In this document: piece after piece, positions 26,016 to 45,210 of the stretch
How the letters are laid out: each line of letters opens with the position of its first letter
How positions within the stretch are numbered: the first letter of the stretch is position 1
Assembly: GCA_902600485.1 (NCBI GenBank)
Contig: CACKJD010000002.1
Coordinates: 183,392 to 247,391, forward strand
Direction of reading: 5' to 3'
Source: an uncultured Pelagibacteraceae bacterium
Lineage (GTDB): Bacteria; Pseudomonadota; Alphaproteobacteria; Pelagibacterales; Pelagibacteraceae
Length of the DNA stretch: 64,000 nt
The notes under the pieces: model-generated
Told to the model about the DNA's origin: nothing
Seen by the model: the letters and a program-made list of their open reading frames with translations, nothing else
Databases searched by the model: none
Program-made: the position numbers and the translations under genes

Positions 26016-27635
26016 TTACATATTCCCGTATCTTGGACCACCACTTCCTTCAGGTGTTACCCAAGTGATATTTTGGGATGGTTCTTTGATATCACATGTC
26101 TTGCAATGTATGCAATTCTGAGCATTTATTACAAATTTCGGTGAACCGTTTTCATTTTGAACTTCGTAAACACCTGCTGGACAATATCTTTGAGCAGGTT
26201 CATCGTATTTTTCTAAAGTATATTTTATTGGTAATTCTTTATCTTTTAACTGGAGATGGACTGGCTGATTGTCCTCGTGATTTGTTCCAGTTAAATATAC
26301 AGAGCTAGTTTTGTCAAAAGTTAAGACGTTATCTGGTTTTGGGTACTCTATAACTGGCATTTTATTTGCTGGTTTTAAAGTTTCATGATCTGCATGCTTA
26401 TGTTTCAATGTGAATGGTAGCTTTCCTCTAAATAATATTTGATCAATTCCGGTAAAAATAATGCCTAAGATTAAACCCCAACTAAAGCTTGGTTTAACAT
26501 TTCTTGCTGCATGTAATTCTTCATAAGCCCAGCTTTTTTTGAATTTTTCCTCATAAATTGATAAATCTTTTTTATCTTTTAGATGCTCAACTATTGTTTC
26601 TGCTGCTATTAAACCACTTTTCATTGCTGTGTGTGAACCTTTTATTTTAGGCATATTTAAAGTACCAGCATCACATCCAATTAATAAAGCACCAGGCATA
26701 AACATTCTTGGTAAACTTTGAATTCCTCCCTCTATTAAAGCTCTTGCACCGTACGAAATTCTTTTACCTCCATTAAGCATTTTTGAAATAGCAGGATGTG
26801 TTTTAAATCTTTGAAATTCATCAAATGGAGATAGATGAGGATTTTGATAATCTAAACCAATTACATATCCTAAGTAAACTTCTTTGTTTTCAGCATGATA
26901 AACAAAACTTCCGCCGTATGTATTATTGTCTAATGGCCAACCTGCAGTATGCATAACTAATCCTTCTTCATGATTTTTTTCATCTACTTTCCAAATTTCT
27001 TTAAAACCGATACCATACTGCTGTGGATTTTTTCCTTTACTTAAATCAAATTTTTTAATTAGGTTTTTTCCTAGATGTCCTCTGCAACCTTCAGCAAAAA
27101 CAGTTACTTTTGCATGAAGCTCCATTCCAGGCTCGTAGCTATCTTTTTTTTCTCCGTTTTTATCTAGACCCATATCTTGCGTGATAACTCCTTTTACAGA
27201 TCCATCCTCATGATACAAAATATCGGATGCTGGAAAGCCAGGGAATATTTCTACACCTAATGCCTCTGCTTGTTCAGCTAACCATCTACACAAATTTGCA
27301 AGACTTATAATATAATTTTTATGATTTTGTTGAACTTTAGGCAGTAGCCATGTTGGCCAACTTATTGATTTTGTTTTACCAAGAAATAAAAATTTTTCTT
27401 TTGTAACTTTTGTTTTAATTGGTGAATTTAATTCTCTCCAATTAGGTATTAATTCATCCAAAGCTCTTGTTTCAAAAACATTTCCTGATAAAATATGGGA
27501 ACCAATTTCTGCTCCCTTTTCTAAAACACAAACATTAATTTCAGAATTTAATTGTTTTAGTTTTATTGCTGTTGCGAGTCCTGATGGTCCTCCACCAACA
27601 ATAACAACATCATATTCCATAACTTCTCTAGTCAT
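26016..27635 (-). CDS. Electron transfer flavoprotein-ubiquinone oxidoreductase
   Basis: GGGPSGLATAIKLKQL, EGCRGHLGKNLI, C-terminal 4Fe-4S motif INAQNCIHCKTCDIKEPSQNITWVTPEGSGGPRY. Confidence 0.95.
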   Translation of the reverse strand: MTREVMEYDVVIVGGGPSGLATAIKLKQLNSEINVCVLEKGAEIGSHILSGNVFETRALDELIPNWRELNSPIKTKVTKEKFLFLGKTKSISWPTWLLPKVQQNHKNYIISLANLCRWLAEQAEALGVEIFPGFPASDILYHEDGSVKGVITQDMGLDKNGEKKDSYEPGMELHAKVTVFAEGCRGHLGKNLIKKFDLSKGKNPQQYGIGFKEIWKVDEKNHEEGLVMHTAGWPLDNNTYGGSFVYHAENKEVYLGYVIGLDYQNPHLSPFDEFQRFKTHPAISKMLNGGKRISYGARALIEGGIQSLPRMFMPGALLIGCDAGTLNMPKIKGSHTAMKSGLIAAETIVEHLKDKKDLSIYEEKFKKSWAYEELHAARNVKPSFSWGLILGIIFTGIDQILFRGKLPFTLKHKHADHETLKPANKMPVIEYPKPDNVLTFDKTSSVYLTGTNHEDNQPVHLQLKDKELPIKYTLEKYDEPAQRYCPAGVYEVQNENGSPKFVINAQNCIHCKTCDIKEPSQNITWVTPEGSGGPRYGNM

Positions 27636-27638
27636 GAA

Positions 27639-28592
27639 TTACTTTTGAATACTATTGAGTTTATTTAATTCTTCTAAAAATTGAGGTAACGCTTCAAACA
27701 AGTCTGCTTCTAATCCATAATCTGCAACACTAAAAATTGGAGCTTCTCCATCTTTGTTGATTGCAACTATTACTTTACTCTCTTTCATTCCAGCTAAGTG
27801 TTGGATTGCGCCAGATATTCCAACTGCAATATACAAATCAGGTACAACAACTTTGCCAGTTTGGCCTACTTGATGATCGTTAGTGATATAACCTGCATCA
27901 ACTGCTGCTCTTGAAGCTCCTATCGCTGCGTTAAGTTTATCTGCGATTGCAGAAATTAATTTAAAGTTATCTGAATTTTGCATTCCTCTTCCACCAGAAA
28001 TAACAACTCTTGCAGTACCTAACTCTGGTCTATCAGATTTTATTTCTTCTCTCTTAACAAATTTTGAACTCTCAAACTTATCCCCTGGCTCGGATTTAAC
28101 TATTTCTGCTGATCCTCCAGTTGAAGGTGCTGGATCAAAAGATGTTGGTCTAATTGTAACACATTTTTTTTTGTCAGTGCTTTTAACAGTTGCAAACGCA
28201 TTACCTGCATAAATTGGTCTTAAAAAAGTATCTTCAGAAATAACATTTACTATATCGCTAACTTGTGACGTATCTAATAATGCTGCTACTCTAGGCATTA
28301 AATTTTTTCCAAATGTATTTGCTGAACAAACGATGTGTGAATAATTATCTACATGCTTTAAAATCGTAGATGTATAATTTTCAGCAGTAAAATTATCAAA
28401 TATTTCATTATCAACATGGATCACTTTTTTGACTAATGGTATTTCGCTTGCAGCTTTTGCAACACTATCTGATTTGTTGCCAAGAACTAAAACATGTAAA
28501 TCTTCATTAATTTTTGATGCTGCTGTAGCTGCATTAAAAGTAAATGGTCTAAGATCTGTGTTATTATGTTCCGCTATTAATAAAACTGACAT
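27639..28592 (-). CDS. etfA: Electron transfer flavoprotein alpha subunit
   Basis: [15 protein letters not shown]...[46 protein letters not shown]. Confidence 0.96.
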
Positions 28593-29341
28593 TATATTAC
28601 TTTAGCCTCATTTTTTAATTTTTGAACCAATTCTGATACACTTGCGACTTTTATACCAGCTTTTCTTTTTGGCGGTTCTTCTACTTTAATTTGCTCGATT
28701 CTCGCTTTAGTATCAACCCCTAAATCAGATGCATTTAATTGTTCTAAAGGTTTTTTCTTTGCCTTCATAATATTTGGTAAAGATGCATATCTTGGTTCAT
28801 TGAGTCTTAGATCACAAGTTACAATCGCAGGTATGTTTACTTCGATCGTTTCTAAGCCCTCATCAATTTCTCTAGTAACCTCTAAAGATTTTTCCTTAAC
28901 CTCAATTTTTGAAGCAAAAGTTGCTTGGGGCCAATTTAATATTGCAGCTAACATTTGACCTGTTTGATTGCAATCATCATCAATTGCTTGTTTTCCCATA
29001 AAAACTAAATCTGGATTTTCTTTTTCGACTATTTTTTTTAATATTTTAGAAACAGCTAGTGGTTCAACTATTCCATCAACTTTAACATGAATTCCTCTGT
29101 CAGCTCCTACAGCAAGAGCCTTTCTTACTGTTTCTTGTGCTTTATCATCTCCGATTGTAATTGCTACAACCTCTTTAGCTTTACCTGACTCTTTTATCTT
29201 CACCGCTTCTTCGATTGCATTATCGTCTGGTGGATTAGTAGACATCTTGACGTTGTCAGTTACAACACCAGTTCCATCATCCTTTACTCTAACTTGGACG
29301 TTATAATCAATTACTCTTTTTACAGCCACTAATATTTTCAT
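28592..29341 (-). CDS. etfB: Electron transfer flavoprotein beta subunit
   Basis: [67 protein letters not shown]. Confidence 0.96.
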
Positions 29342-31773
29342 TATGCTCTCAATAATTTATTTTCTGGATCATAAGGACTTTCATCCAGAATAGTTGCATC
29401 ATATTTCTCGCCTAAAATTTCAACTTTTAATTTCTGTCCTACATTTCCAAGCTCTGGTTTTACCATGCCTAATGCAATTGATTTACCTAATCTAAAACCG
29501 TAATCACCACCTGTTGCTCTACCAATAACACTTCCATTTTCATATATGGGATTATTTCCAAGAACATCTGCGTCTTTTGGATTATGAATTTCTAATGTAA
29601 CTAATTTATTATTAAATCCCTTTTCTCTCCACTTGTTTAAAGCTTCTAAACCAATAAAGCTTCCTTTATTTGGATGAATGAACCTGTCTAAACCACTTTC
29701 ATAAGGCGAGTATTCGATAGATAACTCTGTTCCAACTAGTTTGTATGATTTTTCAACTCTTAAACTATTCATGGCTCTAATACCAAAAGGTTTAATTCCT
29801 AAATCTTTTCCTGCTTCCATTAATTTATCAAAAATATGATTTTGATATTCAATTGGATGATGAAGTTCCCACCCGAGCTCTCCTACAAAATTCACTCTCA
29901 TTGCATTGACAGGCGCATAACCTACGTCAACCATTTTAGAACTTAGCCATTTAAAGTTTTCATTTGAAAAATCGTCTTTTGAAACTTTTTGCATTAGTTC
30001 TCTAGCTTTTGGTCCTGCAACAACAAGAACACCATTGCTATTTGTTAAATTTTCAAATTGAACAGACCCATCATTTGGCATCCATTTTAAAATCCAATCG
30101 TGGTCTAACCTTTGAAAAGCACCTGCAGAAACTAGATAAAAACTTGTTTCAGATTCTCTCATGATTGTAAACTCTGAGTGAACTCCCCCTTTTGTATTTA
30201 GTGCGTGGCAAAGATTAATTCTTCCAATTTTTTTTGGTAATTTATTTGCAACAAGCTTATCTAAAAAAGCTTCAGCACCAGGTCCTTTAATTCTACATTT
30301 TGCAAAAGCCGTCATATCCAGCAGGCCAACATTTTCTCTTACATTTTTGCATTCTTTTTCTATAGCGCTGAACCATTTAGATCTTCTAAATGACCAATCA
30401 TCTTTTTGTTCCATTCCATCTGTTGCAAAAAAATTCGGTCTTTCCCAACCAAATTTTTGACCAAACACAGCACCTAAATTTTTCATTCTATCGTAACACG
30501 GAGCTGTTCTTAGAGGTCTTGCTGCAGGTCTTTCTTCATCTGGGAAGTGATTTATAAAAACATGGCTATAAGCCTCTTCATTCTTTTTAATCAAATATGA
30601 TTTAGAGCAATAGTCGCCGTATCTTCTTGGTTCAACACCAAGCATATCAATTGTAGGTTCTCCATCAACAATCCACTCAGCTAATTGCCAGCCTGCACCT
30701 CCAGCTGCAGTTATTCCAAAACTATGTCCTTCATTAATCCAAAAATTTTTTAATCCCCAAGCTGGTCCAACAATTGGGTTACCGTCAGGTGTATAGCAAA
30801 TTGCACCATTGTAAACTTTCTTAACTCCAACTTCACCAAAAGCTGGAACTCTATGTATCGCACCCTCTATATGAGGTGCTAGTCTATCTAAATCTTCTTG
30901 AAATAATTCATACTCAGACTCTTTAGATGGTCCATTAACGTAACATGCTGGAGCACCATCTTCATATGGACCTAAAATTAATCCTCCTGCTTCTTCTCTC
31001 ATATACCATCTACTGTCACTGTCTCTTAAAACTCCCATTTCAGGTAAACCTTCTTTTTTTCTTTTTTGAATTTCTGGATGAGGTTCTGTAACGATGTATT
31101 GGTGTTCTACTGGTATAACAGGAATATCTAATCCTACCATTTTACCAGTTTGTCTTGCAAAATTTCCTGAACAAGAAATTACATGTTCACACTCTATTGA
31201 TCCTTTATCTGTTTCAACAACCCAACCGTTTTTAGTTTGTTTAATTCCTACAACTGTTGTGTTTCTATAAATTTCTGCACCTCTATTTCTTGCTCCTGTA
31301 GCCAAAGCTTGTGTTAAATCTGCAGGTTGAATGTAACCATCCTCAGGATGTTGAATAGCGCCAACTAAATCAGATGTGTTACATAGTGGCCAAATTTCTT
31401 TTACTTGATCTGGAGTTAAAAATTTTACATCAACACCAATTGTTTGTGCAACACCTGCATACTGAAAATATTCATCCATTCTGTCTTTATTGTTTGCAAG
31501 TCTAATATTAGATACTCTACTGAAGCCTACATTTTTTCCTGTCTCTTCTTCTAACTTACCGTACAAGTTAACTGCGTATTTATGTAATTGACCAACTGAA
31601 TAGCTCATGTTGAATAGAGGTAATAATCCCGCTGCATGCCAAGTCGATCCTGAAGTTAGTTCTTTTCTTTCCACTAGGACAACATCCGACCAACCTTTTT
31701 TTGCTAAATGATATAGTGCGCTAACTCCTACTACGCCGCCACCAACAACAACTACTTTAGATTTAGATTTCAC
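29341..31773 (-). CDS. Dimethylglycine/sarcosine dehydrogenase-like FAD protein with GcvT-like C-terminal domain
   Basis: N-terminal DAO fold ([44 protein letters not shown]) fused to folate-binding GcvT region ([20 protein letters not shown]). Confidence 0.9.
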
Positions 31774-36099: not shown

Positions 36100-38403
36100 T
36101 TAAAAGACTTTATTTAACACTATATTAGCTTCTTTGTTATCTCCTAAGTTTGTCATGTCATCTTGAACATTAAAGCTTAGGTTTAATCCATCAACATTCT
36201 TTTTAAATTCTAACTTTGATAATAGATTTTCTGATCCATTAATTGTAAAAGCATATTCAGCACCCTCATAAGGCAAATAACCAAAGGCAATATGTATGTT
36301 ATCTGTATGTCCTGAGTTAATTGCTTGATTTCTTTCATATATTATAAATAAACTATATTTATCGGGTAAAACAATATCTAAACCAAGTTCTCCATTTAAA
36401 TTATGTAAGGATCCTGAATGTAAAGTTTCGCTTCCCACAACCTCTTTAGCATCTAACAGTTTATAATTAAAATTTGAGCTCCGATCAATATCAATTTGAT
36501 ATTCAATTTTTCCGTGTCTTTTAACTTTATATTTATCATTAGATAAATCTTGCACTGCAGCGAGTGCTGCTCTTAAATTTTTAGTTCTAACATGTTGATC
36601 ATCAACAATATATGCACCATTACCTTGGCCAGTTTCTTCATAACCATCTAATATAGTATGACCGATATCAAATTGAGCTGAAGGAATAAATGTAAAAGTA
36701 TTTTTTTTAATTTCATCCTTAATTTTCAATGTTCCGTATATTTGATTTCCATTTCTATCTGCAGTAAATTTTTTACTATCAACCACAGTTAAAATATCAG
36801 ATTTTATTTTTCCAATACCAAATATTTTATCAATATATTGTTTATTGTTCTGCATTGGTGTTGAACTATAATAAGTAAGGTTAAGAGTTTCTGCGTCTAC
36901 TTCACTTCCAAATTTACCAAAATCTATATGATCATTTCCATACCTGAATACATACCCATGTATGCCTTTTTTGTCTGTAAGTTTATCAAAACCGAAGGAT
37001 AATGAACTTACTTCAAATTTTTTAGGTGTAGAAATTTTGGTATCACCTGTTCTTCCAATTGAAACACTTCCCTCTGTCCAATGAAAATATTTTTTATCAG
37101 AATTATTTTTTTTTTGATTTGTTGATACTTTTTTAAATGAAGAAATTGGTAATTGCTTTAAAGACGAAAGTAAACTGTTAGAAAAATTTATTTTAATATT
37201 CTGATTGGATAAATTGTCTTTATCTTTATTTCTTCTAATCCATTTTAATCTATTTAGAGCCGAATTAGTTGAGAGTGTTATTGTTCTTTTAGCTAGTTCA
37301 GCTTGTGCCTCTGCTACACCTGTTCTGCCTTTTGAAGTATAAGATTTACAGGTTGCACCTGAGACAATATTAAAAGGACAAATTAAATCAATTTCGTTCA
37401 TATGCTCTCCACCATCATCTCCAGGATTATTTTGATCGGTTCCAACATACATTTTTAAACCAGAAGTACTAAAAGCAATACCCCTAGGCTCATCAAACGA
37501 GTCAAACCCATTTAAATCTTCTATGTCTACTGTGCCATCAATAGTAAATGAATTTGTTGAGTAAGCTACATTAAGTGAAATTTGAGTAACATCTGCTGAG
37601 TCGTTTTGGTGATCAAGAGTCCAGAGTCTTGTTCCATCTGGACTAAATACCAAACCGTTAGGGTTTTTAGTTTCATCCTCTAATTCAATTCCTCCACTTG
37701 TTACGAGTGATATAGTTGTTAAATCGAACGCAGTAGACATTGTATACTCTAATAATCTAGTATTTGCACCTTTATCCACAGCTAGTCTGCTGTGAAAAAT
37801 AGCAAATAATTTTGTACCATCTTTGCTAATGTCAAAACCTTGAAGAGTTACTTTGTCATCCCCTAGAGCAGTAATATCTCCTGCATTGCTACCATTTTGT
37901 AAAGCGTCTGAGTCTAAACCTGAAGTTTGATTATCAGAAAAAGAGCACGTCGAAACATCGAAAGGTGAACTAAGTTCAAAACCAAATACTCTATCATGAT
38001 CTGCTCCATCGGACAGTGCACCTCGGCCTACAAATAACTTCCTTCCATCACTAGAAAATTTAAGACCATAAACTCTATTAATTGGACCGGTTGTAGTATC
38101 ATTAGTGTTCAAACGACATTTTTCGTTATCACCAGCAAATATACTCGTCGAGATATCAAAAGGAATGCTTAAATTATACTCACTGACATGCGAATAAGTT
38201 TGAGTGTTTGATGCATTAAACACCACAAACATTTTAGACCCGTCGTCGTTAAAAGCAACTCCATTTCCAAAAAAACCATCATTATCAACTCCTGCAGTAC
38301 CTGATTTTTCCACTAAAACTCTTTGAACAAAAGATATTTCCGCAAATGAAAAAGTGGAAAATAATAAAAAGAATGTAAAGATAATTTTGTTTAACAGTCT
38401 CAT
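36100..38403 (-). CDS. Secreted beta-propeller-like surface protein with C-terminal autotransporter-type beta-barrel
   Basis: Signal peptide MRLLNKIIFTFFLLFSTFSFA; repeated D-G-x-x(L/M)-[FWY]V/T blade motifs (NDDGSKMFVVF, SSDGRKLFVG, SKDGTKLFAIF, SPDGTRLWTLD, STSGLKMYVG); barrel-like C-terminus ending in Phe. Confidence 0.8.
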   Translation of the reverse strand: MRLLNKIIFTFFLLFSTFSFAEISFVQRVLVEKSGTAGVDNDGFFGNGVAFNDDGSKMFVVFNASNTQTYSHVSEYNLSIPFDISTSIFAGDNEKCRLNTNDTTTGPINRVYGLKFSSDGRKLFVGRGALSDGADHDRVFGFELSSPFDVSTCSFSDNQTSGLDSDALQNGSNAGDITALGDDKVTLQGFDISKDGTKLFAIFHSRLAVDKGANTRLLEYTMSTAFDLTTISLVTSGGIELEDETKNPNGLVFSPDGTRLWTLDHQNDSADVTQISLNVAYSTNSFTIDGTVDIEDLNGFDSFDEPRGIAFSTSGLKMYVGTDQNNPGDDGGEHMNEIDLICPFNIVSGATCKSYTSKGRTGVAEAQAELAKRTITLSTNSALNRLKWIRRNKDKDNLSNQNIKINFSNSLLSSLKQLPISSFKKVSTNQKKNNSDKKYFHWTEGSVSIGRTGDTKISTPKKFEVSSLSFGFDKLTDKKGIHGYVFRYGNDHIDFGKFGSEVDAETLNLTYYSSTPMQNNKQYIDKIFGIGKIKSDILTVVDSKKFTADRNGNQIYGTLKIKDEIKKNTFTFIPSAQFDIGHTILDGYEETGQGNGAYIVDDQHVRTKNLRAALAAVQDLSNDKYKVKRHGKIEYQIDIDRSSNFNYKLLDAKEVVGSETLHSGSLHNLNGELGLDIVLPDKYSLFIIYERNQAINSGHTDNIHIAFGYLPYEGAEYAFTINGSENLLSKLEFKKNVDGLNLSFNVQDDMTNLGDNKEANIVLNKVF

Positions 38404-39014: not shown

Positions 39015-39743
39015 ATGAATTTTTCTATAGAAATTGGACCAAAAACAAATCTAGATACTCTGCCAGCTTTAAAAGACGTCTACATTACAATGCTACCTGG
39101 TGGCGATTTTAAAGAGACAGCTCAACAAGCAGTCAACTTAGTTAAAAAGGGTTTCAACCCTGTCCCTCATTTTCCAGCTAGATCAATGGCGAATGAAGCA
39201 CAACTAAAAGAATATGTAACAATGTGTAAAGATGGTGGGGTAAAGCAAGCCCTTGTAATTGGTGGCGGCAGAGAGCCCATGGGAAAATTCGATAGTTCTT
39301 TCCAGCTTTTAGAGACTGGTTATTTTGAGAAAATGAAGATAGGAATTGCTGGACATCCAGAGGGGAGTCCTGATATATCCGACGAAGTGTTAGAAAAAGC
39401 AATGATTGATAAAAAGCCTTACGCTGATTACATTGTAACCCAATGGTTAATGCAGTCTGAACCAATTATTGAATTTATTTCTAAACAGTCTGTCCCAGTT
39501 CATGTTGGAATTACTGGACCTATGAAAATATCAAGCTTAATTAAGTTTGCAAATATTGTAGGTGCAAAAAATTCTATAAATTTTATTAAATCCAATTTTA
39601 GTAGGGCAATTGATTTATTAAAACCAAAAGACCCAAATGATCTAGTAGATAAAATTAAAGAGCATACGAAACATTTTCATATCTACACGTTTGGTGGGCT
39701 TAAGGAAACCAACAACTGGCTAAAGGAAAATAACTATGCCTAA
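39015..39743 (+). CDS. Methylenetetrahydrofolate reductase (MetF/LigH neighbourhood)-like protein
   Basis: MTHFR-type TIM barrel pattern: VPHFPARSMANEAQLKEYV, ALVIGGGREPMGKFDSS, IGIAGHPEGSPD, YADYIVTQWLMQSEPIIEFI. Confidence 0.75.
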   Translation: MNFSIEIGPKTNLDTLPALKDVYITMLPGGDFKETAQQAVNLVKKGFNPVPHFPARSMANEAQLKEYVTMCKDGGVKQALVIGGGREPMGKFDSSFQLLETGYFEKMKIGIAGHPEGSPDISDEVLEKAMIDKKPYADYIVTQWLMQSEPIIEFISKQSVPVHVGITGPMKISSLIKFANIVGAKNSINFIKSNFSRAIDLLKPKDPNDLVDKIKEHTKHFHIYTFGGLKETNNWLKENNYA

Positions 39744-41148
39744 AAAAAGAAAAAAAACAAAAAAAAAGTCCAACGGAAAATTATCACCAAGCAGAATTAT
39801 TGAAAAAGTCGATTATTCAAAAGTATCACATACTACAAAAGTAGATCAATCAGACAGACACGTTCCATATAACTTAAGACAAAGCGGTCCAACAAAAGTA
39901 GAATTGTTAATGTCAACAAGAGTTAGAAAATCTCCGTACTGGCACTTATCAATGAAGGCAGGATGTTGGAGAGCAACAGTTTATAACAGAATTTATCACC
40001 CACGTGGATATGTAAAACCTGAAAAAGGTGGAGCGATGGTTGAGTATAAGGCTATTAAAAATCACGTTACAATGTGGAATGTTGCTGTTGAGAGACAAAT
40101 TAGAGTTAAAGGTCCTGATGCAGAAAAATTTACTGACTATGTAATTACAAGAGATGCAACTCGAATTTCACCGATGAGAGCTAGATATGTAATTCTTTGT
40201 AATTATAAAGGTGGAGTTCTTAATGATCCAATTTTATTAAGAATTTCACAAGATGAGTTTTGGTTTAGTTTGTCAGACAGTGATATAGGCTTATATCTAC
40301 AAGGAGTAAATGCAGATAAAAGATTTAATGTTGAAATAGATGAAATAGATGCATGTCCTGTGCAAATTCAAGGTCCAAAATCAAAAGCTTTGATGAACGA
40401 CTTAATTGGTAAGCAAGTTGATTTAGATAATATGCCTTATTATGGATTAGCTGAAGCAAAAGTTGGTGGAAGAAGTTGTGTAATTTCTCAATCTGGTTTT
40501 TCTGGTGAAGCGGGTTATGAAATATATTTAAGAAACGCAACACTTTACGCAGAAGATATGTGGAATGCAGTTTTAAAAGCAGGTAAAAAACATAAATTAA
40601 TGGTTATCGCTCCTGCGCATCACAGAAGAATTCAAGCTGGAATTTTATCTTGGGGTCAGGATATGGACAATGAACATAATCCATTTCAATGTAATTTAGG
40701 CTATCAAGTTTCATTATCAGGAAAAGGTGAATGGGCTAAAAAAGGAGATTACATTGGTAAAGAAGCACTAGAAAATATGAAAAAAGAATTATTAAATGGA
40801 CAAAAACCTTACAAACTTCAATTAGTTGGTATGGAACTAGGTGGAAAACCAATTGAAGAATATGCCCCAGATTTTTGGCTAATATCAAAAGATGGAAAAA
40901 ATCCAATCGGTTTTGTTACATCTCCTTGGTATCATCCAGAAAAAGGTACAAATATTGCAATGGGTTATGTTCCATTTGATGGAACGATTAACAAAAATGG
41001 ATTTCCTAAAGGTAATGTGGGTGATAAATTTAAAGTTCACTTACCTAAAAAATATTGTGAAAAAGGAAGTAATCCTGTTGATGCAGTTGTTGTGGATATT
41101 CCTTTTACAGAGTCTTATAATCCAAACACTAGGGAAGTTGCGAAGTAG
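39736..41148 (+). CDS. GcvT-like folate-dependent methyl/aminomethyltransferase (DmdA/LigM superfamily)
   Basis: 470 aa; VERQIRVKGPDAEKFTDYVITRDATRISPMRARYVILCNYKGGVLNDPILLRI, SGFSGEAGYEIYL, GxIGKEAL; carries an unusual basic ~100-aa N-terminal extension. Confidence 0.82.
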   Translation: MPKKRKKTKKKSNGKLSPSRIIEKVDYSKVSHTTKVDQSDRHVPYNLRQSGPTKVELLMSTRVRKSPYWHLSMKAGCWRATVYNRIYHPRGYVKPEKGGAMVEYKAIKNHVTMWNVAVERQIRVKGPDAEKFTDYVITRDATRISPMRARYVILCNYKGGVLNDPILLRISQDEFWFSLSDSDIGLYLQGVNADKRFNVEIDEIDACPVQIQGPKSKALMNDLIGKQVDLDNMPYYGLAEAKVGGRSCVISQSGFSGEAGYEIYLRNATLYAEDMWNAVLKAGKKHKLMVIAPAHHRRIQAGILSWGQDMDNEHNPFQCNLGYQVSLSGKGEWAKKGDYIGKEALENMKKELLNGQKPYKLQLVGMELGGKPIEEYAPDFWLISKDGKNPIGFVTSPWYHPEKGTNIAMGYVPFDGTINKNGFPKGNVGDKFKVHLPKKYCEKGSNPVDAVVVDIPFTESYNPNTREVAK

Positions 41149-41275: not shown

Positions 41276-41820
41276 TGTTTGCACAATTTTTAAGCATCGT
41301 ATTTAGATCAATTAAGCTCGATAAAAATCTTTATAGAGAAAGTAAGAGTTTTGGTGAGGCAGCAATATATTTTTCGGCTCTTGTTATGGTTTTAGATGGG
41401 GTAGCTGGAGCTATTGCAGCAAATACATTTTACAAAACATCGATCGGTTTATCCGCGATTACTGCTATTTTTACCTGGTTCGTTTGGGCAATATTTATAT
41501 TTGTAATTGGAGTAAAACTATTTCCAGACAAAGATACTAAGGTTCCATTTAAAAAAATACTTATAGCGGTAGGTTTTGCTCATGCCCCTGGCCTATTAAG
41601 ATTTTTCGCTATTACGCCAACTATGGTAATGCCAGTTATATTTCTTACTCAACTATGGATTTTCGCATCCCTTATAATTTCAACAAGAGAGGTGTTACAA
41701 TTAAAATCCAATTTTAAATCTTTTGGAATTATATTTTTGTCATTTTTAATACTAGCTATATTATCAGTGTCTTTTGTTATGAGTAGAATGGATACGTTGC
41801 CAATAAGTAATGTAACTTAA
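41275..41820 (+). CDS. Yip1-domain-type membrane protein
   Basis: 181 aa, 5 TM; VPFKKILIAVGFAHAPGLLRFFAI matches the Yip1 (YIP1_2) pattern. Confidence 0.75.
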   Translation: MFAQFLSIVFRSIKLDKNLYRESKSFGEAAIYFSALVMVLDGVAGAIAANTFYKTSIGLSAITAIFTWFVWAIFIFVIGVKLFPDKDTKVPFKKILIAVGFAHAPGLLRFFAITPTMVMPVIFLTQLWIFASLIISTREVLQLKSNFKSFGIIFLSFLILAILSVSFVMSRMDTLPISNVT

Positions 41821-41978
41821 ATTGGAAATATTGTTTTAGACACTCTACAAGATTTACAAATTTTAAATCCTGTAAATATTAAATTATGGGTAACACTTTC
41901 GTCATTTTTTTTACATTCCTCACATAAATCGTCTAATGACTCTTCAGTATAATCAATGTTTGAGTTTTCTTTAGTCAT
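41817..41978 (-). CDS. 53-aa CxxC/CxxC zinc-ribbon-like microprotein
   Basis: Not in ORF track. MTKENSNIDYTEESLDDLCEECKKNDESVTHNLIFTGFKICKSCRVSKTIFPI; ATG overlaps 3' end of the upstream gene by 8 bp. Confidence 0.65.
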   Translation of the reverse strand: MTKENSNIDYTEESLDDLCEECKKNDESVTHNLIFTGFKICKSCRVSKTIFPI

Positions 41979-42582
41979 TATCTGTCAAACCAGCTCCAGC
42001 AGCAGTATTTTTTAAGCTTTCATTTTCTTTGACGAAAGTTTCTTCAGATATTTTATATAACTCTTCCCAATCTTTTTCATCAAAAGTATTTTCGTTTTTT
42101 AAAAATTCTATTTCTAATATTTCAACTTTGTCTTTTAAATTACTTAAATTACTTTTTAAAAGTATGGACTGATTAAAATTAAGTAAAAAAGTTTCATTCT
42201 CAACTTTAAGGCTTAACCTTTTTCCAATTATTTCTGAAGATCTTGAAATAAATGGTATCAGTAATATTGGATAAGCCATATTGTTAAAAATTATTTTATT
42301 GTATTTTTCCAAAGAATGAATTTGATCCATAAAGTTTATACCTGTGATTAAAGGACAGTAAGGAATTTTGTTTGAAATATTTGTCTCTGTAATCAAGCTA
42401 ATATTCTGGAACTGGCTTCTTTTGATAACTTTAAAGTAGTTATTAAGATTTTTTAAACCTGGTAGTCCGAACATTTCCATCAGTTTTATAGATTTTCCAA
42501 TTTCTTCTGAGATTCCCCATGAAAAACCCATGCCTTTAGAAGCTCTTTTAGATATTGTATCAATTTCGCTTAATGATCTCAT
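41971..42582 (-). CDS. DUF3726-like protein
   Basis: MRSLSEIDTISKRASKGMGFSWGISEEIGKSIKLMEMFGLPGL resembles the DUF3726 N-terminus as remembered; function unknown. Confidence 0.6.
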   Translation of the reverse strand: MRSLSEIDTISKRASKGMGFSWGISEEIGKSIKLMEMFGLPGLKNLNNYFKVIKRSQFQNISLITETNISNKIPYCPLITGINFMDQIHSLEKYNKIIFNNMAYPILLIPFISRSSEIIGKRLSLKVENETFLLNFNQSILLKSNLSNLKDKVEILEIEFLKNENTFDEKDWEELYKISEETFVKENESLKNTAAGAGLTDND

Positions 42583-44243
42583 TAGTTTAAAGAATTATAA
42601 ATCCAATTATCTTTAAAATTATTTAAATCCTCAGGCAAAGGTGCTCCTTGAAACATGCAAATCCTTAACCACTTGTCTGATCTTGGGTCAAATTTACAAG
42701 CGCCAAAGAAAGATAATTTAAGTCTAAGCATGTCAATTGGAATTAATTTATGCCCGATTGTATTATCTTGTATTTCTGAATATGGGAATTTTTCAATAAG
42801 GAAAGCTCTTCTGACAACATGTCTTAAATCATTATTATCTAACAAAAATCTACTTACTGGCAAACTTTGTTTAAAATTAGTAGCTCTAAAATATAATTGA
42901 TTTATATCTCTTGCTATTGCAAGCGGTTGTTCTAATTCAGAACCTTGTTCTTCAAATCTATTTGCAATTCTTGGTTCTTCTTTATTTTGAGAAATAAACC
43001 AAAAATTTTGGTTATTTTCATTTTTTTTAAAATCGATCTTTATTAAATTTCCATAATATTTTTCTAAAATATTTAATAAATCTCTAACAGTTTTATGAGT
43101 TGGGATATTAAAATATTTATCCTCATTTGAGCTCATTGTTGCAATTAGAGGTTCGATTATGTCATCAAAAGGTTCCATTAACATTGAAACTATATATTCA
43201 ATGCCCTCTTCACTTAAGTTTTCCTCAGCCCATAAATAAAATTCATTGAAAAAATAATCCTTTTTTTCAGAATAATTTGTATCTAAGAAATCTATTACTT
43301 TTTTTAAATCATCTTTTAAATTTTGTATCTTTTTTTTTTGATAATCACTATCTGTTTCCCAAGAAAAAATATTCTTTAGAGACTTTTTTAAACAATCTAA
43401 AAAATAGCTATAATCTTTAACATTAATTCTTTTTAATTCTCTAATCTTTTTTAATGCAACTTCCCTCGCAGTTATCCAATTATTTAATAAAGTTGGATGA
43501 TTTATTATAAATGGTGCCATACCTAAACCTGTGGAATTGCCTATGCCCAAACTTCTACATATATTTTTATCCAATTCGACTGCTGACTTAGGGCTCTTTG
43601 ATTTTGCAATATGATTAACTTGATCAAAAGTAAATTGTCTTACAAAATAAACTAACATCATTTCTAATCTAAAAGGACCAACTATTTCTGGCCTATCTTT
43701 AATTCTAAATCTGTCTGCTAAACCAAATTTTCCTGAGCCATATACTGCAGTAGTTCTGTAAAGGTATCCAATTTTGCCTATTGTGCTTTTATCTGGTTGT
43801 TTTCCATTTGATAAACAATCGACTACATAATTAAAAGCTCTTAATGATTTATTGGCTCTTGATAAAGTAAGTTCTTTATAAGTCATTCTACCTATTTCTT
43901 GTTTTGGTACATTTTGTTTTAATCTATCAATATCTTTTTTGGTAGGCACACCATCAAAGAGTGTAAAGCTTGCATCCCATTTAGTAGCAATAACCCTATC
44001 TGATCTTTCATGATCATCAATTTTATTTGAAAAACAAATTAATGAATAATTTCTATTTTTTTTCTTAAAAGAATAGACAGCAACGCCATGTCCATTTTCA
44101 TCTAAATCAAACATGTCTCTTTTATAATCCCAGTCTTTAAATTCTCTTAAGAAAGATCTTAAAAATGATAATTTTGATTGATGGAATGAACCCAATCTTG
44201 AGAGTTTCATAATTTTTTTTGGATCTCTTAATTCAATTTGCAT
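42582..44243 (-). CDS. Conserved-looking 553-aa protein of unknown function
   Basis: Long intact ORF with no family I can assign; sits between the M19 dipeptidase and the DUF3726-like gene with 1-2 bp junctions. Confidence 0.85.
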   Translation of the reverse strand: MQIELRDPKKIMKLSRLGSFHQSKLSFLRSFLREFKDWDYKRDMFDLDENGHGVAVYSFKKKNRNYSLICFSNKIDDHERSDRVIATKWDASFTLFDGVPTKKDIDRLKQNVPKQEIGRMTYKELTLSRANKSLRAFNYVVDCLSNGKQPDKSTIGKIGYLYRTTAVYGSGKFGLADRFRIKDRPEIVGPFRLEMMLVYFVRQFTFDQVNHIAKSKSPKSAVELDKNICRSLGIGNSTGLGMAPFIINHPTLLNNWITAREVALKKIRELKRINVKDYSYFLDCLKKSLKNIFSWETDSDYQKKKIQNLKDDLKKVIDFLDTNYSEKKDYFFNEFYLWAEENLSEEGIEYIVSMLMEPFDDIIEPLIATMSSNEDKYFNIPTHKTVRDLLNILEKYYGNLIKIDFKKNENNQNFWFISQNKEEPRIANRFEEQGSELEQPLAIARDINQLYFRATNFKQSLPVSRFLLDNNDLRHVVRRAFLIEKFPYSEIQDNTIGHKLIPIDMLRLKLSFFGACKFDPRSDKWLRICMFQGAPLPEDLNNFKDNWIYNSLN

Positions 44244-44244
44244 T

Positions 44245-45210
44245 TTATATTTCTTTATAAAAATTAAACCAATTGTTGCCTAATATTGCATTAATATCAT
44301 TGTTATCGAAACCAACTTTTTTAAGTCCATTTTCAATATTATTAAATCCTCTCGCATCTTTAAACCATTCAGGTTGATCAGGAAATCCTTGATTGTTTTT
44401 TGACCCCTCTCCTAAATTTTTTGACTTTGTCCATGTTCCATTTCTCATCCACTCAACAACACTATCAGGCTGATTTAGACAAAGATCTGAGCCAATACCA
44501 ATATTTTTAATCCCCATGACATCGACTAATCTTGCTACCATTTCGCAAAAACTATCTAGTGAACAATTTGTTCCATCTTTTAAATGATGTGGATAAAGTG
44601 ATAGACCTAGCATACCTCCACTTTTTGATAATGTTTTAAGAAGATCATCAGACTTACTTCTTTTAGTTTGATGCCAAAAAGATGGATTAGCGTGAGTAAT
44701 TGCAATAGGTTTTTGGCTTAAGTCAATTGCATCGTAAGTACTTTTTTCTCCTGAGTGAGACATATCAACAACAATTCCTAATCTATTCATTTCTTTAATT
44801 GCTTCTCTTCCAAAATTAGTAACACCTCCATCATTTTTTTCATAACATCCTGAGGCTAATAAAGATTGATTATTATAAGTGAGCTGCATAAATCTGCACC
44901 CATGCTCATAAATCTTTTCAATTAAATTTATATCATCCTCAATTGGCGAACAGTTTTGAAAACCAAAAAAAATTGCTGTTTTATTTTCATTTTTTGCTTT
45001 CTCAATATCTTTGAAGTTTTTACCTAAAAAAATTAAATCTTTGTTTTCCTCAAAATTTTCTTTCCACTCTAAAAGTCTCTTTTTAAATTCATCAAAATCT
45101 TCATGATAAACAACCGTTACATGTACTGCATCTAAATTAGCTTCTCTATTAATCTCAAAAACAGATCTTTCCCATTTGCAGTATTGTAAATTGTCAATTT
45201 TGAAATTCAT
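44245..45210 (-). CDS. Membrane (renal-type) dipeptidase, peptidase family M19
   Basis: DAVHVTVVYHEDF, GIVVDMSHSGEKSTYDAIDLSQKPIAITHANP, IGIGSDL, ILGNNWFNFYKE. Confidence 0.88.
   Translation of the reverse strand: MNFKIDNLQYCKWERSVFEINREANLDAVHVTVVYHEDFDEFKKRLLEWKENFEENKDLIFLGKNFKDIEKAKNENKTAIFFGFQNCSPIEDDINLIEKIYEHGCRFMQLTYNNQSLLASGCYEKNDGGVTNFGREAIKEMNRLGIVVDMSHSGEKSTYDAIDLSQKPIAITHANPSFWHQTKRSKSDDLLKTLSKSGGMLGLSLYPHHLKDGTNCSLDSFCEMVARLVDVMGIKNIGIGSDLCLNQPDSVVEWMRNGTWTKSKNLGEGSKNNQGFPDQPEWFKDARGFNNIENGLKKVGFDNNDINAILGNNWFNFYKEI

Follow-up and report, generated by a model that had tools for sequence, protein, structure and literature searches.

A three-gene cassette of SAR11 bacteria encoding an M19-fold protein, an orphan protein family and a DUF3726 partner, and its possible role in the catabolism of betaine-type compounds

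Gene organization of the locus

The window analysed herein is a 64,000-nt stretch of a SAR11 (Pelagibacteraceae) genome that is 95.8% complete, and the subject of this work is a group of four genes within it (Table 1), coding for an M19-fold protein, a protein of an orphan family designated U553, a DUF3726 protein and a protein of 53 amino acids (aa). An earlier note, made from the sequence alone, had taken these genes for a single operon processing a specific peptide- or amide-like metabolite. The coordinates and lengths that it gave for the open reading frames proved exact, as did the successive joints of +1, -1 and -8 bp, the start of the 53-aa gene overlapping the end of the DUF3726 gene. 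The tight packing, read there as a sign of function in a streamlined genome, is uninformative in this respect, because 23 of the 41 other same-strand gene pairs within the window also touch or overlap, and the argument was discarded.

Table 1. Genes of the studied locus, with positions in the window
Feature	Position	Strand	Evidence
M19-fold protein, 321 aa	44245..45210	-	Peptidase_M19 in Pfam, E 6e-73; 2I5G, E 2.5e-54; motifs in alignment A6
U553, 553 aa, orphan family, core of the module	42582..44243	-	No Pfam, NCBIfam or PHROG match; alignment A2; AlphaFold2 model
DUF3726 protein, 203 aa, truncated Ldh_2-like partner of U553	41971..42582	-	PF12525, E 6e-22; alignment A3
53-aa CxxC...CxxC zinc-ribbon-like protein, outside the module	41817..41978	-	Occurs at the locus in SAR11 lacking the other three genes

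Three of the four genes belong together. Co-occurrence in relatives had been named as a point on which the proposed unit would stand or fall, and the comparison bore it out: U553 was detected in 68 of 101 SAR11-order genomes, and the M19 gene adjoins it in the same 68. Among the SAR11 loci fetched by name, the M19, U553 and DUF3726 genes lie side by side in 80 of 80, the closest loci, from single-cell and metagenome-assembled genomes, carrying U553 proteins of 96-98% identity. These genes are gained and lost together as a three-gene cassette, and the conservation of this trio is far beyond chance.

The 53-aa gene does not follow this pattern. It is intact at four SAR11 loci without the trio (L230, L232, L233 and L234), where the gene order is purE, the 53-aa gene, a 181-aa gene, a GcvT-like gene and an MTHFR-like gene, and the trio occurs without it at four others (L098, L104, L106 and L147). 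For this reason the 53-aa protein, which gave no Pfam match in a profile search, is regarded as the product of a separate SAR11 gene lying beside the cassette and was ruled out as a fourth member of the module; of the four-gene operon only the trio is retained.

Properties of the encoded proteins

The U553 protein gave no relative in profile searches of Pfam, NCBIfam and PHROG, only chance-level matches to PDB sequences, nothing in the viral and PHROG sets, and no match to Ldh_2 by hhalign, so that the description of the 553-aa protein as one of no recognised family was correct. Its AlphaFold2 model is confident, with a predicted local distance difference test (pLDDT) value of 88.9 and a predicted template modelling (pTM) score of 0.90. 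A structural match that would place the protein in an unrelated pathway was looked for with Foldseek against the PDB, and none was found (best E 1.6). U553 is a deeply conserved family without a Pfam entry, whose model has no match among solved folds. Across the alphaproteobacterial members 86-87 residues are invariant (87 in alignment A2, 26 sequences), among them 15 Arg and 1 His, with no Cys. Of the 87, 40 sit where the model is least confident, within its eight lowest-scoring 10-residue blocks (Spearman -0.59, p 2e-6), a pattern that would be expected if these conserved loops became ordered upon binding of a ligand or a partner.

The likeness of the 203-aa protein to DUF3726 is genuine, the PF12525 match covering residues 2-68. 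An independent search for DUF3726 across the phylum matched 33 of 398 genomes, and U553 lies immediately upstream in 29 of the 29 loci examined from it. In Mesorhizobium sp. 131-2-1 the two proteins are fused into one of 814 aa that still ends in the DUF3726 tail. Since they are co-inherited in all loci examined and fused in this strain, U553 and DUF3726 very likely form an obligate two-protein complex. In the literature collection searched, nothing on DUF3726 or PA5396 was found.

Several comparisons connect DUF3726 with Ldh_2 (PF02615), a family that includes malate/L-lactate, ureidoglycolate and sulfolactate dehydrogenases as well as piperideine/pyrroline-2-carboxylate reductases. The gammaproteobacterial and Natrinema DUF3726 proteins align with the first ~135 residues of Ldh_2 at E 1e-9 to 1e-10; the protein of locus L215 exceeds the Pfam cut-off of that family (41.4 vs 38.8 bits), and those of L213 and L218 fall slightly under it. 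Alignment of the DUF3726 and Ldh_2 profiles by hhalign gave P 1.5e-4 over 57 columns, and the top PDB folds for the SAR11 DUF3726 model (pLDDT 85.4) are almost all Ldh_2, with a Foldseek probability of up to 0.98 and an E of only 0.08. Unlike the full-length Ldh_2 domain of ~335 aa, DUF3726 comprises ~200 aa; the segment of the catalytic SHG motif is gapped in the profile alignment, and a conserved C-terminal AGAGLxDND tail is added (alignment A3). Taken together, these comparisons make DUF3726 look like a decayed relative of Ldh_2 that has turned into a partner subunit, probably non-catalytic. A true Ldh_2 enzyme is often encoded by the next gene.

The third protein shares the full-length fold of peptidase family M19 (membrane dipeptidase, PF01244). 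Its best solved relative, matched over the full length, is 2I5G ('amidohydrolase'), which we take to be a Pseudomonas protein of the dgcAB region. When the residues to which roles are assigned in human DPEP1 were followed through the module M19 proteins (alignment A6), the HxD motif was missing from all 14 of the 14 aligned, most having IDxLQY in its place, the bridging Glu was replaced by Gln (GFQN) and the substrate-binding His by Tyr (TYNN). Two distal His positions are kept in nearly all, and the Arg and Asp are kept. Judged by this match and these motifs, the protein belongs to an atypical clade that groups with 2I5G and not with the known dipeptidases, and in which the canonical binuclear-metal ligands are mostly not conserved; ordinary dipeptidase activity is therefore unlikely.

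Distribution and genomic context

Among alphaproteobacterial genomes sampled across the class, U553 is present in 53 of 386 (48 of the 331 of high quality), and the members from outside SAR11 are mostly 40-47% identical to the window protein. Further copies turned up in Variovorax and several Gammaproteobacteria, and a distant one in the archaeon Natrinema. Counted by hand, 31 of the 34 loci of the wider set include an M19 gene; L185, L206 and L212 have U553 without a nearby M19 gene. A tree built from 53 U553 proteins unites the SAR11 copies in one clade (100/99) beside the lineage of L179 and L180, which holds a fuller cluster, and the Gammaproteobacteria, in which aldehyde dehydrogenase (ALDH) and BCCT genes are also found, make the deepest branch of the main clade. 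The copy of the halophilic archaeon lies on a plasmid (L218, 10091-12621), together with an Ldh_2-like partner and a BCCT transporter gene; a dihydrodipicolinate-synthase-family gene and an ALDH gene are nearby, and a transfer between domains is probable.

Outside SAR11 the genes recur in the order LysR, ALDH, M19, (BCCT), U553, DUF3726, Ldh_2, with a glycine-betaine ABC transporter often following. Such clusters, whose gene content varies, were found in Ruegeria TM1040, Phaeobacter, Sulfitobacter, Aminobacter, Pararhizobium, Shinella and Mesorhizobium. At L180 three OpuAC-type betaine ABC transporter genes run directly into ALDH-M19-U553-DUF3726, and in TM1040 an operon for a four-subunit enzyme of the sarcosine-oxidase type (Sox or Mgd) lies across the LysR gene from the cluster. 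The best scores of the cluster ALDH were those of 2,5-dioxovalerate and alpha-ketoglutarate-semialdehyde dehydrogenases, all under the respective cut-offs. The Shinella cluster also contains a pyrroline-5-carboxylate-reductase-like gene. A divergent U553 subfamily (L217, L175, L222 and L223; Sinorhizobium, Variovorax, Bosea and Neorhizobium) has the order IclR, U553, Ldh_2-like small partner, M19.

Within SAR11, genes of the heterotetrameric sarcosine-oxidase type are near the trio at many loci; the window genome holds one alpha subunit of this four-subunit type, on another contig, and the window itself contains a formate-tetrahydrofolate ligase gene besides DMGDH-like, ETF and ETF-quinone oxidoreductase genes. 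In a second SAR11 family an ALDH gene stands beside the trio at some loci, and at one locus both ALDH and Ldh_2 genes are present. As fuller sets exist in this family and at L180 and none by the window trio, the Pelagibacteraceae appear to have kept only the M19-U553-DUF3726 core and to lean on general enzymes for the other steps; the SAR11 system is probably a reduced form of a betaine-type catabolic operon of Roseobacter.

Further candidates for membership were rejected. Of the neighbouring GcvT-like (470 aa) and MTHFR-like genes, the former occurs in nearly all SAR11-order genomes regardless of the trio and has another location in the second family; an ALDH gene on contig 13 occurs with and without the trio and is absent in most of the second family. 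At two loci of that family (L225 and L226) the trio is accompanied by a polyamine-type ABC transporter and ALDH genes, with a type III glutamate-ammonia ligase gene one gene away. No type III enzyme of this kind (glutamate-methylammonia ligase) was found in the genome of the window.

Proposed function

The betaine transporters and the enzymes encoded near them point to a quaternary, N-methylated compound whose breakdown ends in a C5 semialdehyde. On this basis the trio may form the core of a module in which an N-methylated compound of the betaine type is catabolised, most likely homarine (N-methylpicolinate), a reading to which we would assign a probability of about 0.4. That the substrate is of the betaine type is likely; homarine in particular is a tentative choice, with the odds somewhat against it. 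It is suggested by the betaine transporters, by a set of enzymes that would fit the conversion of an N-methylpyridinium carboxylate to N-methylglutamate, and by the reported involvement of Mgd in a homarine pathway conserved among bacteria (PMC13390433, citing Nat Microbiol 2026, 11:1531). Homarine is quickly depleted by R. pomeroyi (PMC12817926).

It is tempting to speculate on the course of such a pathway, with low confidence in the order of its steps. Uptake would take place via quaternary-ammonium transporters, and the U553-DUF3726 pair would attack or open the N-methylpyridinium ring as the first or an early step. In the complete clusters the Ldh_2 enzyme could then reduce an imine or enamine adjacent to the carboxylate, and the ALDH could oxidise a C5 semialdehyde. 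The atypical M19-fold protein might remove the one-carbon or acyl group left over; N-methylglutamate would finally be demethylated by an enzyme of the Mgd/sarcosine-oxidase type. SAR11 would presumably rely on an aldehyde dehydrogenase of general function and on demethylases linked to folate. A bolder and rather improbable extension is that U553-DUF3726 represents a new enzyme class, in which an unsolved fold, its active site closed by the tail of a decayed Ldh_2-like partner, dearomatises or opens the ring of N-methylpyridinium carboxylates, the SAR11 trio being its minimal cassette.

The operon of the homarine pathway of Ferrer-Gonzalez et al. 2026 is reportedly called homABCDER. The Roseobacter cluster, with LysR, five recurring enzyme genes (ALDH, M19, U553, DUF3726 and Ldh_2), betaine transporters and neighbours of the sarcosine-oxidase/Mgd type, may correspond to that pathway, as such a set would suit the degradation of an N-methylated pyridinium carboxylate by way of N-methylglutamate. 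The Pelagibacteraceae carry only three of the Roseobacter cluster genes.

Several points weigh against the assignment of the trio to homarine catabolism. The equation of the cluster with the published operon draws on the operon name and on genomic context. The sarcosine-oxidase-type operon of TM1040 could serve sarcosine and not N-methylglutamate. No dedicated ALDH or Ldh_2 gene lies by the trio in the window genome, the best genome-wide matches being 31-32% identical and in unrelated contexts. Many clusters elsewhere also lack ALDH or Ldh_2, and therefore the trio may serve several substrates. In most members of the divergent subfamily an ABC transporter different from those of the main clusters is encoded downstream; with its other gene order, regulator and transporters, this subfamily likely acts on another substrate, which again suggests more than one substrate for the trio.

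A module of the same type could instead act on hydroxyproline betaine, trigonelline or another N-methyl heterocycle, for instance by a hydroxyproline-like route to alpha-ketoglutarate through the ALDH and an Ldh_2 imine reductase. The closest curated families of the ALDH, which use alpha-ketoglutarate semialdehyde, would agree with this, as would the proline/glycine-betaine transporters by the clusters, the pyrroline-5-carboxylate-reductase-like gene of Shinella and the dihydrodipicolinate-synthase-family and ALDH genes of Natrinema. However, no hydroxyproline epimerase, Rieske stachydrine demethylase or two-component flavin monooxygenase of the trigonelline type is annotated beside the clusters read, and no fixed partner set recurs beyond ALDH, Ldh_2 and transporter; such a substrate is on balance unlikely.

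Less probable still is a helper module of glycine betaine/dimethylglycine breakdown, in which the M19-like protein and its partners would handle a one-carbon or N-methyl intermediate. The presumed dgcAB-region origin of 2I5G fits this explanation, and the window holds the DMGDH-like, ETF and ETF-quinone oxidoreductase genes and a folate GcvT-like gene. The precedent is found in P. aeruginosa and V. natriegens, where two genes, the M19 gene pepD and a hypothetical one, stand in front of dgcAB (PMC12093977), so that an M19 'dipeptidase' and a hypothetical gene, the latter likened by position alone, again stand in a catabolic cluster for N-methyl amino acids. By contrast, the SAR11 trio has no adjoining dgcAB, and it is missing from one third of the SAR11 genomes, while the GcvT-like gene is found in nearly all of them, trio or not.

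The three genes might also not belong to one pathway, U553-DUF3726 being a general complex and the M19 gene merely a frequent neighbour, as the three loci with U553 and no nearby M19 gene would allow; the identical presence of U553 and M19 in the 101 SAR11-order genomes and their adjacency in the divergent subfamily too make this very improbable. The weakest explanation is that of the earlier note, in which the M19 dipeptidase would drive the processing of dipeptides or amides; clear membership of the fold can hardly sustain it against the loss of the motifs described above and the lack of any recurring peptide transporter or further peptidase in the clusters.

The earlier note was thus right in recognising a conserved unit that holds a protein of an unclassified family, and wrong about the fourth gene and the dipeptidase chemistry. 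Its dedicated pathway or small complex for a specific metabolite survives as a co-inherited set, probably for one metabolite, in which a complex of U553 and DUF3726 is very likely; peptide or amide chemistry and the 53-aa member fall away.

SAR11 rank with the ocean's most abundant bacteria, and roughly two thirds of the SAR11-order genomes sampled hold the cassette. If the trio does act on homarine or on a betaine resembling it, three genes, countable in any ocean metagenome, would be linked to a large flux of nitrogen and carbon from phytoplankton. Of greatest interest are U553, as an orphan family, and the identity of DUF3726, which can now be placed as the Ldh_2-derived partner of U553.

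Other genes of the window

An MTHFR-like gene (242 aa) and a DmdA/GcvT-like gene (470 aa) are located at 39015-41148; the 470-aa protein has a long N-terminal extension and scores under the dimethylsulfoniopropionate-demethylase cut-off. Four genes at 26016-31773 code for a DMGDH/sarcosine-dehydrogenase-like protein with a folate domain, ETF beta, ETF alpha and ETF-quinone oxidoreductase. At 36100-38403 a 767-aa protein with an autotransporter beta-barrel domain is encoded, and close relatives hold variable copies in the same place.

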